A DNA stretch of 21,915 nucleotides from positions 1 through 21,915 of the forward strand of contig JAOAGA010000017.1 of the NCBI GenBank assembly GCA_026415985.1, in the 5' to 3' direction. The DNA is from Pseudomonadota bacterium. Lineage in GTDB: Bacteria; CALINM01. Both the position numbers and the translations under genes were made by a program. Positions within the stretch are counted from its first letter, which is position 1, and each line of letters begins with the position of its first letter. Below the pieces are notes generated by a model. It saw nothing but the letters and a program-made list of their open reading frames with translations. It was not told the DNA's origin and made no database searches. Shown piece after piece: positions 15,519-21,915 of this stretch.

Positions 15519-16685
15519 TTATCTCTTCGGAAATTTATCCTTTAATATAGTATCCACGATCTCCGGAACTACTTCCCATGCAACTTTTTCAATAATTTCG
15601 TAGGTAATCTCTTTTATTATCTTTTCAAGCTCCTTTCTCTCAAGACTAAGTAGCTCGCTTTTACTTTCCTCTCTCTTTGTTTCTACAACCTGCTCAACAG
15701 GTTCTTTACCCTCTTTTTCTGTCGGTAACTCAAAATCCCATATATCCAGCTCTTCCTCTGAAGCAACTATCTCTTCCATCTCCTTCAGCTCTTTTGCAAC
15801 TTCTTCAACAACAGGTTTTACCTTTTTCTCCTCAAAGATCTTTTCTGCCGAAGGTTTTTCCTTTTCGACAAGTATCTCATTCAAATCTGAGAAAAACTCA
15901 TTTATATCAATGGATGGTTCCTCTGTCTTCTTCTCTTCGGGTACCTGCTCTATCTCAACCTTTTCTTTCTTTTGAGGCTTTTCTACCTCTTCTTCAATAA
16001 CAATTTCTTCTCCCAAAAGATCCTCTAAGGTTACAGTCTCTCCGATCTCTTCCTTCGAAGGCGATTTTTCCTCTTCTATCTTTAATTCCTCTACTTCTAT
16101 CTCTTCAATGTCCTTAAGCTCCTCCAACTCTTCAACCTCTTCCGGCTCAACGATGCTTAAGTCTAACTCCTCAAGAGAAGCCTTTTCTTCTTCCTTTATA
16201 GTAAACTCCTCACCAAAATCTAACTCAAAAGATTCTAAAGGCTCTTCCTTTGAACTTATTATGTCTTTCAAAAACTCCTTCTCAGCGGGTTTAATCTGTT
16301 CCTCTTTTTTCTCTGTTATAACCCCGGTTTTTGCTTTAAGACCTTCTATTTTTGTGATAAACGTCTGAGAGTCAAAGGGTTTTTCTATAATCTCGTCACA
16401 TTGGGAAAGCGACAGAATTTTATCTCCCGTATAATCTTTGCCGTTATACATTATAAGTATGGGAAGGTTAGGTTTTTGTTTTTTTATCTCCTTTGACAAT
16501 TCTCCGGAGTCCCTGTCGGGAAGGCCGAAATCAAGTATTAACGCATCTGCAGACGATGATTTTACAGCGTTCAATGTTTTTTCACCGTTCTCGGTAAAGA
16601 TAAGATTATACCCCAGGGGTTTAAGAAGCATCTCAATAACCTTTCTAACGGTAAAACTATCATCTGCTATTATTAAATTTTTCAT
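15519..16685 (-). CDS. Receiver-domain protein with long acidic linker and conserved C-terminal module
   Basis: Residues 1-120 are a CheY-like receiver domain with the acidic pair D8/D9, phospho-acceptor D52 (LILDFGLPD) and K102 (EKPF). The usual switch threonine is replaced by Tyr80 (LIMYNG), so signal output is likely non-standard. Residues 121 to about 345 are a very acidic, low-complexity linker with short repeats of the type ELDF, ELDLS and ELDIWDFEL. The last 40 residues are a separate helical module with EKVAWEVVPEIVD, a motif I recall from other deltaproteobacterial response regulators. There is no DNA-binding or enzyme output domain, so it probably acts by protein contact. It begins in an ATGA overlap with a CheW-like gene, behind a GAGGAG ribosome site. 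This suggests a chemosensory or polarity role, by inference. Confidence 0.85.
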   Translation of the reverse strand: MKNLIIADDSFTVRKVIEMLLKPLGYNLIFTENGEKTLNAVKSSSADALILDFGLPDRDSGELSKEIKKQKPNLPILIMYNGKDYTGDKILSLSQCDEIIEKPFDSQTFITKIEGLKAKTGVITEKKEEQIKPAEKEFLKDIISSKEEPLESFELDFGEEFTIKEEEKASLEELDLSIVEPEEVEELEELKDIEEIEVEELKIEEEKSPSKEEIGETVTLEDLLGEEIVIEEEVEKPQKKEKVEIEQVPEEKKTEEPSIDINEFFSDLNEILVEKEKPSAEKIFEEKKVKPVVEEVAKELKEMEEIVASEEELDIWDFELPTEKEGKEPVEQVVETKREESKSELLSLERKELEKIIKEITYEIIEKVAWEVVPEIVDTILKDKFPKR

Positions 16686-17089
16686 AAACTCTCCTCGCCA
16701 CTGAAAAGTGACATCTCATCAAAAAAGTAACAATCCTTTTCTCCAATCTTTAGAGCCCTTTTTGCGTAACAATCATCAACAACAATAGCGTTTTTTAAAT
16801 CTTCCTCATTGATTTTTATAAAATCTATGAAGTTATCGATTATAACTCCTGCCAAATCAAGTATCTTAATGACTATGAGAACAATGCGATCTTTTAAAGA
16901 CAAATCAGCGTTTACGCTAAAAAGGGGGATCAGTGTTTTGTTATAAACCGCAACATAGGGGAGATTTTTACCATAGGGAGAACTAAATATTTCCAAACTG
17001 TCCGGGGCTGTAACTTTAGCTATAATTTTTTCGTCAAAGAGATAAATTTTTTCGCCTATATTTACTCTTAAAAAGGTTATTTCGGGCAA
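16682..17089 (-). CDS. CheW-like protein, second of a pair
   Basis: A 135-residue soluble protein with a CheW-like beta-barrel pattern: an N-terminal strand pair (FLRVNIGEKIYLFDEKIIAKV), a central LPYVAVYNKTLIPLFSV segment, and VIIDNFIDFIKI, matching the GLIVDxVxxV strand of CheW. CheW proteins couple receptors to the CheA kinase. This one is shorter than typical CheW (150-170) and divergent, so the call is at the fold level. The start is TTG at 17089 behind an AAGGAG ribosome site, overlapping the previous CheW-like gene by 13 bases. The stop overlaps the receiver-linker gene start (ATGA). No CheA or chemoreceptor gene lies in the window, so it may serve a distant array or a non-chemotaxis system. 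Confidence 0.7.
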   Translation of the reverse strand: MPEITFLRVNIGEKIYLFDEKIIAKVTAPDSLEIFSSPYGKNLPYVAVYNKTLIPLFSVNADLSLKDRIVLIVIKILDLAGVIIDNFIDFIKINEEDLKNAIVVDDCYAKRALKIGEKDCYFFDEMSLFSGEESL

Positions 17090-17490
17090 GTTAGCTCCTT
17101 ATATCTTTCATCAAAAAACTCATCAAAAAAGACGAAAATGATCCTGCCATCTAAAATCCCTGCAAAATCAATATACTGATAACCATATTTGTTTAATAGC
17201 CCCACCTTATTAACCACTTTAATCTTTTCTAATTCAAAAAACCCCTCTACCGAATCAAGAGTAAGTCCAAAGTTATAACCTCTTTTAGAATTTAAAAACA
17301 GTAATTTTTTTTTTTGACCCTCTTTTCCCTTTGTAATTTTTAAAAACTCACTTCCGTTAAAAACCTCCTGTTCTCTACCATCTACAACGATAGTGCCCTC
17401 TTTCAGTCCTTCCTCATAACTATAAACCTTCTGAACGAGTGTTGTATTAAGTGCAAAAAAGTAGCCATTGACATTGAAAAACAAATACAT
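17077..17490 (-). CDS. CheW-like protein, first of a pair
   Basis: A 137-residue protein with the expected CheW-like order: YLFFNVNGYFFALNTTLVQKV at the start, a middle KLLFLNSKRGYNFGLTLDSVEGFFEL segment, and a C-terminal YIDFAGILDGRIIFVFFDEFF strand pair. The last of these matches the closing strands of CheW (LLDxxRLLxxLD). It resembles the neighbouring 135-residue protein in layout, so they may be a diverged duplicate pair. The ATG at 17490 has no Shine-Dalgarno sequence, and the best promoter lies only 10 bases away, so leaderless translation is likely. It is the first gene of the minus-strand group. A scaffold or coupling function is inferred from the fold. Confidence 0.7.
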   Translation of the reverse strand: MYLFFNVNGYFFALNTTLVQKVYSYEEGLKEGTIVVDGREQEVFNGSEFLKITKGKEGQKKKLLFLNSKRGYNFGLTLDSVEGFFELEKIKVVNKVGLLNKYGYQYIDFAGILDGRIIFVFFDEFFDERYKELTCPK

Positions 17491-17687: not shown

Positions 17688-19175
17688 ATGAAAAGAGCGG
17701 TTAATTTTACAATATTAATCGTAACTTTATTTTTAATTGTAGCAAGCTCTCAATCATCGGAAAGCTCCCTTGAGAGGGTTAAGAAAAGAGGATATCTTTT
17801 ATGGGGAACTGATGCAGAAGGAGGTGCCCCTTACGCCTTTCCTGACCCCGGTAACCCCGATAAACTAATCGGTTTTGAAATAGACTTGGCCGAGGCAATA
17901 GGCAGGGAGCTTGGCGTAAAAATCAGATACGTTCAAAACGCTTGGGATAGTTTAATTCCTGCCCTTGAGCGAGGCGACTTTGACATAGCAGTAAACGGTA
18001 TTGAGATTACACCTCAACGCCTTGAAAAGGTTATCTTTACCAAACCCTATTATGTTTACACCCTTCAGACAGTGGTTAGGCTTGATGACAACAGAATCAG
18101 TGATTTTAATGACCTTAAGGGGAAAAAGGTCGGAACTCTTCAGGGGGCTGTATCACATTCTCTTCTTCAAGAGCTTGGTGGTGTAGATATAAAGGTTTAT
18201 TCAGGTGTTGTGGAACCCTATGAGGATCTGGCATTAGGAAGGCTCGATGCGGTTTTCCTTGATAGCCCCATCGCAGGATACTACGCAAAACCAAATAAAA
18301 AGTTAAAATACGTAGGAACCCCTATTGGCGAGGGACTTTACGGAATGGCACTGAGAAAAGAAGACAAAGAACTTAGAGACGAGATAGACAAGATACTAAT
18401 GAGGTTAATATCAACGGGAGAGTTAAAAAAGATATACGAAAAATGGAACCTCTGGGATAAAAGTCAGGAAAAACTTTATAAATATGCAAAGGAATATACA
18501 GGAGAATCCTTCAAAGAAGAGATAAAATCAGTTTCTGCATTATCTTTTATTCCCGCACTTTTCAAGGGAGCTCTTGTAACCATAGGGGTTTCTGTAGCGT
18601 CAATGATTGTCGCCATTATCTTAGGTCTTACCCTTGCTTTGATGAAAGTTTATATGAGACCACCCTTCAGTTATCTTGCATCAGCCTACATTGAGTTTTT
18701 CAGAGGAACGCCTCTTTTAATCCAGCTTTATATACTATATTACGGCTTACCCAATATTGGTATATCTCTAAACCCGCTGACCGCAGCCATATTAGGTTTG
18801 GGGATGAATTATGCCAGTTATGAGGCAGAACTATACAGGGCAGGGATTTCAGCTATTCCCAAAGGACAGTTGGAGGCGGGGCTGTCTCTTGGTATGTCAA
18901 ATTTCTTGGCGGTGAGAAGAATAGTTCTGCCACAGGCTATAAAAATAGCCTTGCCCGGCATAACCAATGATTTCATTGCACTTTTTAAAGACTCTTCTCT
19001 TGTTTCGATTATTGCGATGGTTGAGTTAACTAAGTCATACACAATTCTTGCTGCGACTACAATGAAGTTTTTTGAATTAGGGTTGATTGTGGCCTTTTTA
19101 TATTTTGCCATGAGTTATCCCCTTTCTTTACTGTCTAAAAGATTAGAAGAAAGATTAAAGAAGAAAAAAAGATGA
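17688..19175 (+). CDS. Fused substrate-binding protein / permease of a polar amino-acid ABC transporter
   Basis: A single 495-residue protein imports amino acids across the inner membrane. An N-terminal signal sequence or membrane anchor (about 1-22) leads into a family 3 solute-binding domain (about 28-258) with [11 protein letters not shown] at 62-72 and the amino-acid binding ITPQR at 107-111. A linker (about 259-285) is followed by a HisM/GlnP-type permease (about 285-490) with several membrane helices and the ATPase-contact EAA loop around EAGLSLGMS at 397-405. Such fusions are known, for example in GlnP. The exact amino acid cannot be told. The ATG at 17688 gives a complete signal sequence and has no Shine-Dalgarno sequence. 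Its stop overlaps the ATPase gene start (ATGA). Confidence 0.95.
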
Positions 19176-19924
19176 TAAAGGTCAGAAACTTACACAAATA
19201 TTACGGAGATATTCACCTCTTCAAAGGACTTTCATTAGAGGTCGCCAAAGGAGAGGTTGTTGTTTTAATCGGCCCCTCCGGCTCGGGAAAAAGCACCTTC
19301 CTCAGATGCATAAACGGTCTTGAGATATTTCAGGATGGCGAGATAATCGTTGATAACATTGAACTCCATTCCATTAACAGATTGAACCCCTCAAAAGAAG
19401 AAAAAGAAACAATCAGAAAAGTAAGGATGAAGGTTGGAATGGTATTTCAGCAGTTTAATCTTTTCTCCCATATGACGGTATTAGAAAATATTATAGAAGC
19501 TCCTGTACATGTCCTTAAAATGAAAAAGGATCTTGCAATCGACCGTGCTACAGAGCTTTTAAAAAGAATAAATCTGCTGAAAAAAAGGGATAGTTACCCC
19601 GATGAGCTATCAGGGGGAGAACAACAAAGGGTTGCCATTGCAAGAGCACTGGCTATGAGACCGGAGGTTATGCTTTTTGATGAGCCGACCTCTTCACTGG
19701 ACCCGGAAATGGTGGGAGAAGTATTAGCGGTAATAAAGGACCTTGTAAATGAGGGTATGACAACAATAATCTCTACCCACGAGATGAGCTTTGCAAGAGA
19801 AGTAGCTGATAAAATCTGTGTCTTCGACAACGGAGAGATAATAGAGATCGGAGAGCCTGAGGAGATTTTCACTAACCCGAAGATTGAAAGAACAAAAGCC
19901 TTTTTAAGAAGAATAATCAAATAA
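19172..19924 (+). CDS. Polar amino-acid ABC transporter ATPase (GlnQ/HisP family)
   Basis: This 250-residue ATPase powers the fused transporter encoded just before it. It has Walker A GPSGSGKS at 34-41, the Q-loop QQFNLF around 93-98, the signature LSGGEQQR at 146-153, Walker [13 protein letters not shown] at 167-177 and the switch histidine H203 (STHEM). It is a complete single-domain protein of normal length. The start is an ATGA overlap with the permease stop, so expression of the two is likely coupled. The next gene begins 17 bases after the stop, so a CHAT lipoprotein is probably on the same transcript. Confidence 0.97.
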
Positions 19925-19941: not shown

Positions 19942-21915
19942 ATGAAAAATATTTTTTACTTTTTCTCTTTATTTTTAATTATGACAGCCTTGTCTGGTTG
20001 CGCAGGTAATATCTCCCATTACGAATTGTTATTAAACAGAGGAAATTACTTAGAAGCAGAAAACAAAATAGAAAAAGATCTGGGGGATATTAAAAACTCA
20101 AAAAGCGGTGAGTTAGTATTTCTGTGCCAGACCTATTACAAGACTAAAAAATATGATAAACTCTTTTCCTGCCTTGACCAGTTAGAAAAAAATATAAACA
20201 GGGGAGACAAATACCTATCCGACTGGAACCTTATTATAGCAGGCTCACGCCAGTTCCCCTATGATTTGACATTAATTCCCCATATTCTCAGAACAGAAGC
20301 CTACCTTGAGCTTGGAAATTACAAAAGGGCATTACAATCAGCTAATTTAGCTTACAACCTTTATAAAAATATGAACTGGGCTATCTGGGACTTACAGATA
20401 AACTGGGACAGAATATTAAAGATACGCATACTTAGTAATCTCGTAATCTCGAACGCCTTTTACGGAAACAGGGAAGTCGCAAAAAATTTTTTATCTGATC
20501 TTGAAAATGAAGGGACCGGGTTTGGTGCAAGATATTTTGTTGATAAAGAAAAAAAGGTTGCCTTGGCAAAGTCTTATATGGCAGTTGGAAGTTATGATAA
20601 GATCCTGGAAAACAATATAGACCCCTTTCTTACCTTTGCCCATATTTTTACCTTAGGAATATTTAAGGCAATTGAAGAAAACGTCTTTGCCTACAGTGAG
20701 CTTCCGAAGAAATTCTATAGATACAAAGCCCTGTATGAAACCGGAAAAACCGAGGAAGCAAAGTCTGGTTATGATGAACTAATAAACAATCCTCAGTCAA
20801 GGCATAATGGCGAAATCTTTTGGTCTCTCTTATACGATAGAGGACTCATATATGAAAAGGAGGGTAACAGAAAAACTGCAAAGGATTATTTAGAAAAGGC
20901 GATTAATATAATAGAGTCCCAAAGATCTTCAATTAATACGGAGGCAAACAAGATTGGTTTTATTGGAAACAAACAGAGAGTCTATGAAAAAATCATCTCT
21001 CTTTTCTACGATGACAAAGAGTATATTAATGCCTTTGAGTTTGCAGAAAGATCCAAATCAAGAGCACTCGTAGACCTGTTAGCCTCCAAAAAAGAGTTAA
21101 CTTCAAAAAGCAAAGAGATAAACTCACTGATAGCTGAGCTTGATAACTTTGAAAATCAGGGCAAATCTATAGCTGTCAACCTCTCAGAAAAAACCGGTCA
21201 TAGTTCAACAAGAGGATTAGAAATAAAAGAAAAGATAAAAACCCTTGCTCCGGAGGTATTTACCCTTATATCTGTTTCAGTCCCTTCACCTAAAGAAATA
21301 CAATCACTATTAAAAGAAAAGGAAACCATAATTGAGTACTATTATGGGAGCAATGATTTATATGCCTTTGTAATTAACAGAGATAAAATTAATGCTGTCA
21401 AATTAGATAACGGTAACTTTCTGAATTTGGCAGAAAGCTTTAGAAAATCGCTTCAAGACCCAGATACAAAGGATTACTTGGAATTATCAAAAAAACTATA
21501 TCAAAAAATTTTCCAACCTCTTCGATCACTAATTGAAAGTGATAATATAATCATAGTCCCCCATGGAATACTCCATTACATACCATTTTCAGCCCTTTAT
21601 GACGGGGAAAAGTTTCTCATTGATAAATATAATTTAAGTTACCTGCCCAGTGCAAGTATAATTAGATTTTTAAGAGATAAAAAGGAGAGTCATAACAACA
21701 GTTCCTTGATACTTGGCAATCCTGATATCGGTAACCCCCTTTATGATCTAAAATACGCAGAAGATGAAGCAGTTACAATCTCAAAGAAACTACCCAACCC
21801 AACTGTCTTATTAAAAAACTCAGCTACAGAGACCGCCTTTAAGAAAAATGCTTCAGGTTTCAGGTACATTCATTTAGCCTCCCACGGTCTGTTTAACTCC
21901 GATGACCCTTTAAAC
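19942..21915 (+). CDS. TPR-like/CHAT-domain lipoprotein, N-terminal part (cut by window edge)
   Basis: The frame is open for 658 codons from the ATG at 19942 to the window edge. The N-terminus is a lipoprotein signal with lipobox LSGC and Cys20, so the protein should be anchored at the cell envelope outside the cytoplasm. Helical TPR-like repeats follow (about 25-330, for example AYLELGNYKRALQSA and GLIYEKEGNRKTAKDYLEKA). From about 440 there is a CHAT domain, a caspase-like (clan CD) protease fold, with PHGILHYIPFSALYDG and LSYLPSASI. The sequence IHLASHG contains the predicted catalytic His648. The catalytic Cys would lie beyond the edge and is not seen. A distant AAGGG, 11 bases upstream, may be the ribosome site. 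Its place behind an amino-acid importer suggests envelope proteolysis, by inference. Confidence 0.92.
   Translation, partial: MKNIFYFFSLFLIMTALSGCAGNISHYELLLNRGNYLEAENKIEKDLGDIKNSKSGELVFLCQTYYKTKKYDKLFSCLDQLEKNINRGDKYLSDWNLIIAGSRQFPYDLTLIPHILRTEAYLELGNYKRALQSANLAYNLYKNMNWAIWDLQINWDRILKIRILSNLVISNAFYGNREVAKNFLSDLENEGTGFGARYFVDKEKKVALAKSYMAVGSYDKILENNIDPFLTFAHIFTLGIFKAIEENVFAYSELPKKFYRYKALYETGKTEEAKSGYDELINNPQSRHNGEIFWSLLYDRGLIYEKEGNRKTAKDYLEKAINIIESQRSSINTEANKIGFIGNKQRVYEKIISLFYDDKEYINAFEFAERSKSRALVDLLASKKELTSKSKEINSLIAELDNFENQGKSIAVNLSEKTGHSSTRGLEIKEKIKTLAPEVFTLISVSVPSPKEIQSLLKEKETIIEYYYGSNDLYAFVINRDKINAVKLDNGNFLNLAESFRKSLQDPDTKDYLELSKKLYQKIFQPLRSLIESDNIIIVPHGILHYIPFSALYDGEKFLIDKYNLSYLPSASIIRFLRDKKESHNNSSLILGNPDIGNPLYDLKYAEDEAVTISKKLPNPTVLLKNSATETAFKKNASGFRYIHLASHGLFNSDDPLN

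Follow-up and report, generated by a model that had tools for sequence, protein, structure and literature searches.

CHAT enzymes whose activity is known cleave particular target proteins; they do not digest protein in bulk. Those with a worked-out mechanism are, to our knowledge, nearly all cytoplasmic. The CRISPR-linked TPR-CHAT protein of Craspase keeps the two members of its catalytic dyad, H585 and C627, apart until a partner triggers it, and is activated allosterically (PMC9729208). Here, we analyzed a TPR-CHAT lipoprotein gene at the end of a 21,915-base window, which is the whole of contig C70 from a 1.57-Mb draft genome (84% complete) whose phylum is represented by three genomes in our sample. 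Its product is likely to be a partner-activated CHAT protease tethered to the outer membrane, encoded by an accessory gene that stands by chance behind an amino-acid importer.

Architecture of the TPR-CHAT lipoprotein

The gene occupies positions 19942 to 21915 on the plus strand, where all window features given below also lie unless stated otherwise. From the ATG at 19942, its frame stays open, with no stop codon, for 658 of ~760 expected codons and is cut by the contig end, the assembly stopping 10 residues past His648 of the CHAT protein. A profile search of the contigs identified it as the only CHAT gene in this draft genome. The idea that another contig carries the 3′ remainder of the gene was rejected, as the CHAT profile, even at an E value of 10, matched this contig only and found no CHAT remnant on any other. 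GC content showed no sign of a recent entry. Because orthologs in other phyla align over its full visible length at 35-44% identity, chance is excluded.

The N terminus of the protein, MKNIFYFFSLFLIMTALSGC, is a lipoprotein signal, in which residues 1-20 (19942..20001) form the signal sequence with the lipobox LSG-Cys20 and an alanine at position +2. It is followed by a helical region of TPR-type repeats (residues ~27-326; 20020..20920), recognized by Pfam and visible as helical hairpins in a structure model, which was built from the single sequence and, with a mean pLDDT of 45, has a low confidence that makes it usable for the helical pattern only. The strongest repeat, at residues 296-323, passes the Pfam cut-offs for TPR_2 and TPR_6; it is the one strong repeat by profile, the others being recognized from the helical pattern and from the orthologs.

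The C-terminal part comprises the N-terminal 55% of a CHAT domain (PF12770; 21481..21909), in which residues 514-656 match profile positions 2-159 of 289 (E = 3.1e-25). The PF12770 score is 89.7 bits, against a curated cut-off of 24, and the complete ortholog from genome G096 scores 249.9 bits. All of the CHAT motifs visible in the window protein are intact; they include VPHGxLHYxPF, with His541 and His545, and IHLASHG, which contains the catalytic His648 (codon 21883-21885). The preliminary description of the gene, which had listed the Cys20 lipobox, TPR-like repeats, a CHAT domain with His648 in IHLASHG, and a 17-base gap to the preceding gene, proved accurate in all of these points.

Distribution of full-length orthologs

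Among the sampled genomes, two other phyla contain a total of nine full-length orthologs, which can be aligned with all of the visible protein at 35-44% identity. One of them (G096; 42% identical) is from another small phylum, and the eight others (35-44% identical) are from a large phylum. The full-length group is present in three phyla with few members in each (1 of 3, 1 of 6, and 8 of 395 genomes). Of two scans against named genomes, one returned no match, and the other, which was driven by N-terminal patterns, returned a single distant protein from Chitinophagaceae. Gene transfer from the large phylum was considered, and no direction is claimed, with the window sequence placed on an unresolved fork of the tree. 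Because the remaining homologs, whose frames often have 850-3000 codons, match only from about residue 270 and have different N termini, the full-length TPR-CHAT proteins form a group of their own, distinct from other CHAT homologs. We read the window gene as a stand-alone accessory gene that is patchily distributed among few species.

Probable envelope location

An N-terminal signal sequence is present in all ten members of the group (the window protein and its nine orthologs), and a lipobox-type cysteine in eight. The two other members, both of one genus, have a signal sequence in which no clear lipobox is seen, so that the family can do without lipidation. The visible window protein contains three cysteines only, namely the lipid-carrying Cys20, Cys62, and Cys77. 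The last two (20125..20172) reside in two adjoining helices of the low-confidence model and show an all-or-none distribution, with both present in seven of the ten members and neither in three. Cys62 and Cys77 may form a disulfide, as would fit an oxidizing compartment outside the cytoplasm; the three members that lack them are neighbors in the tree, and the relatedness of the ten sequences weakens this disulfide test. The protein is probably lipid-tethered at the outer membrane, where it would face the periplasm.

Active site

His648, in its HxxxHG context, is invariant in all ten members and is aligned with H585 of Craspase. In each of the nine complete orthologs, a cysteine follows exactly 45 residues after this histidine, within the motif LSAC(E/D)T (SACxT context). 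A profile of the ten sequences aligns the histidine and the cysteine with H585 and C627 of the solved Craspase TPR-CHAT protein at an E value of about 1e-5, with the correspondence counted on the printed profile alignment. In the window protein, the SACxT cysteine falls beyond the contig end and is predicted near residue 693, a further 35 residues on. Because the nine orthologs keep the His-Cys dyad, in alignment with the published H585/C627 pair, the window species is likely to possess an intact protease.

The neighboring amino-acid importer

Two genes of one importer lie upstream, encoding (i) a fused SBP_bac_3 binding protein and permease (17688..19175) and (ii) an amino-acid ABC transporter ATPase (19172..19924), which is closest to the cystine/ectoine/glutamine group (GlnQ/TcyN-type). 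The fusion of binding protein and permease in one polypeptide is common to the window and the sister genome G001. On the minus strand, at 15519-17490, a gene for a response-regulator-domain protein comes after two small genes, of which one shows a CheW-like match below threshold; these genes, which are divergent from the importer, are possibly chemosensory.

The CHAT gene starts 17 nt past the ATPase stop codon (19922-19924) on the same strand. A consensus scan of this gap revealed neither a plus-strand terminator-like site nor a promoter-like site, in agreement with the earlier remark that the gene has no visible promoter of its own. Because the gap is only 17 nt, the importer and CHAT genes probably share a transcript in the window species.

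Both sister genomes retain the importer, with SBP-permease proteins that are 66-74% identical and, in G001, an ATPase that is 70% identical, and no CHAT match to the query was found in either of them (G001 or G002). The gene behind the ATPase encodes a cytochrome P460 in G001, and in G002 it is a convergent permease-like gene. Among 38 CHAT-homolog loci, the SBP-permease had no match, and the ATPase had three distant ABC matches only. The conserved linkage to importer genes by which an accessory protein of the importer would be recognized was thus not found. The preliminary description had proposed that the protease and the importer are paired in function, had suggested a survey of homolog neighborhoods, and had named in advance, as one refuting result, homologs that are not near such transporters; this is what the survey returned. 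The functional pairing was therefore not borne out, whereas the other part of the description, a CHAT-protease-like lipoprotein of the envelope whose gene probably shares a transcript with the importer, was supported. Because the sisters have the importer without CHAT and the 38 homolog loci lack the SBP-permease, the adjacency appears to be confined to this species, and the ATPase and its fused companion are best read as chance neighbors, not as partners.

DUF4384, caspase, and CHASE2 genes

A link between CHAT and DUF4384 genes was noticed post hoc. In G096, the next gene upstream of the ortholog encodes a CsgG-DUF4384 lipoprotein, which is the sole DUF4384 gene found in that genome. In G715, a DUF4384 gene is 6 kb from the ortholog, and DUF4384 and a WD40-Peptidase_C14 gene are both within 8 kb. 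In G584, which contains a more distant homolog, DUF4384 is beside several CHAT genes. One frame of this genome (L139, from G584:C38; 2868-4844), among consecutive CHAT genes that follow a DUF4384 gene, encodes both CHAT (74-348) and DUF4384 (505-579) as a fusion.

The window's own genome contains one DUF4384 gene, which is truncated where contig C95 ends (G000 C95:53142-53443; L082:12983-13441). Because its orthologs in G001 and G172 come after a gene for a Peptidase_C14 caspase, such a gene is probably present in an assembly gap of this genome. A join of C70 to C95 was also considered; it is unproven, the gene before DUF4384 in G001 and G172 being the C14 caspase. Pairs of caspase (C14) and DUF4384 genes are present at L083:2-1853 (G001), L088 (G172), and L131:1734-6652 (G715), with 62-64% identity between phyla in the caspase part. 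The G715 caspase shows WD40 repeats and a signal-like N terminus.

A CHASE2-adenylate/guanylate cyclase gene lies directly upstream of the CHAT ortholog, on the same strand, in G622 (L127:11508-13493) and G664 (L129:11279-13216), and three genomes of another family have CHASE2 genes at a distance of 3-5 kb from CHAT genes. The CHASE2-cyclase was rejected as a general partner, as it adjoins CHAT in one genus only and is several kilobases away in the other family. We treat the DUF4384 link, which is weaker but recurrent, as a lead, by which DUF4384 proteins would be better partner candidates than the importer. No relevant papers on CHAT with DUF4384, CHASE2, a lipoprotein, or the outer membrane were found in the literature searched.

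Proposed mechanism and alternative explanations

We propose that a caspase-fold (CHAT) cysteine protease is held by its lipid, probably at the outer membrane on the periplasmic side, where its N-terminal helical repeats would bind a protein partner or sense it. The protease would be latent at rest, by analogy with Craspase and separase. The TPR part would then relay a conformational change that brings together His648 and the unseen cysteine (~693), and the activated protease would cleave a specific protein of the envelope, or a small number of them. Its gene would have landed behind the amino-acid importer, whose transcript it probably shares, without serving it.

Three other explanations were weighed against this one. 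That CHAT and the importer make up a functional unit, in which envelope proteolysis feeds amino acids or CHAT controls the transporter, is suggested by the short same-strand gap with no terminator-like site and by an amino-acid-type binding protein of another family (Peripla_BP_6) 480 bp upstream of the ortholog in G536, the one locus with a loose resemblance. However, synteny largely refutes this reading: the sisters keep importer genes of 66-74% identity without CHAT, the 38 homolog loci offer no SBP-permease match and, for the ATPase, only the three distant ABC matches, and it is established that CHAT enzymes of known activity are specific cutters and not digestive; we regard such a unit as very unlikely. 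It is likewise hardly to be expected that the protein is a catalytically dead CHAT fold, with no role in the envelope beyond that of a binding scaffold. The catalytic cysteine of the window protein is out of view, and some more distant CHAT homologs gave no dyad-motif match in a simple scan, but both dyad residues are found at constant spacing in all nine full-length orthologs, and every CHAT motif that can be seen in the window protein is intact.

Doubtful, though conceivable, is an envelope system built on DUF4384/CsgG-type lipoproteins, with a secreted WD40-caspase in some species, in which CHAT is the effector or activator and DUF4384 its partner. It is favored by the CsgG-DUF4384 lipoprotein next to the G096 ortholog and found nowhere else in that genome, by the DUF4384 and WD40-Peptidase_C14 genes within 8 kb in G715, by the neighboring genes and the CHAT-DUF4384 fusion in G584, and by the contig-end DUF4384 gene of the window's genome. 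Nonetheless, the link holds at only two of nine full-length ortholog loci and was noticed post hoc, CHASE2-cyclase genes recur too, and DUF4384 in G001 and G172 adjoins the C14 caspase, not CHAT. More speculative, and improbable in our judgment, is an extracytoplasmic cascade in which a DUF4384/CsgG sensor releases the outer-membrane TPR-CHAT lipoprotein, which in turn cuts or activates the secreted WD40-caspase; if true, it would be the equivalent, in the envelope, of the CHAT-caspase immune cascades of the cytoplasm.

We thus favor the latent, partner-activated protease. If this is correct, a group found in three phyla, whose ten members all have a signal sequence and mostly a lipid anchor, and whose complete members all retain an intact dyad, would place proteolysis of the caspase type in the envelope of bacteria. 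In the analysis of neighbors, the importer emerges as a misleading clue, and DUF4384 proteins as the better partner candidates.

Comparison with known systems

The Craspase TPR-CHAT protein (Csx29, type III-E; PDB 7x8a, 7y9x, and others) resembles the window protein in its N-terminal TPR-type repeats, its C-terminal CHAT domain, and its aligned dyad, but it has a gRAMP/Cas7-11 partner and no known envelope signal, and its similarity to the window family is very low (E about 1e-5 by profile). The attributes of a type III-E Csx29, namely a neighboring gRAMP/Cas7-11 with a CRISPR array and a cytoplasmic location, were not found here; the window protein has a signal sequence, no Cas gene was detected among the window proteins scanned, and PADLOC returned no defense family for the CHAT protein. 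The window protein is not a CRISPR Csx29.

According to a published comparison (PMC9729208), separase and the caspase clan CD peptidases share the fold and the type of dyad; they differ in being eukaryotic and cytoplasmic, and no direct sequence match to them was found here. The CHAT protein of PDB 8rot/8rw5 (991 aa) is matched by profile (E = 5e-6), in an alignment that spans the CHAT core only. Generic "CHAT domain-containing TPR proteins" from cyanobacteria, Azospirillum, and others, including plasmid matches of 22-32%, have the same architecture over residues ~295-658. Their similarity, however, mostly ends before the N-terminal 260 residues, whereas the window group is marked by a conserved N-terminal half and a signal sequence.
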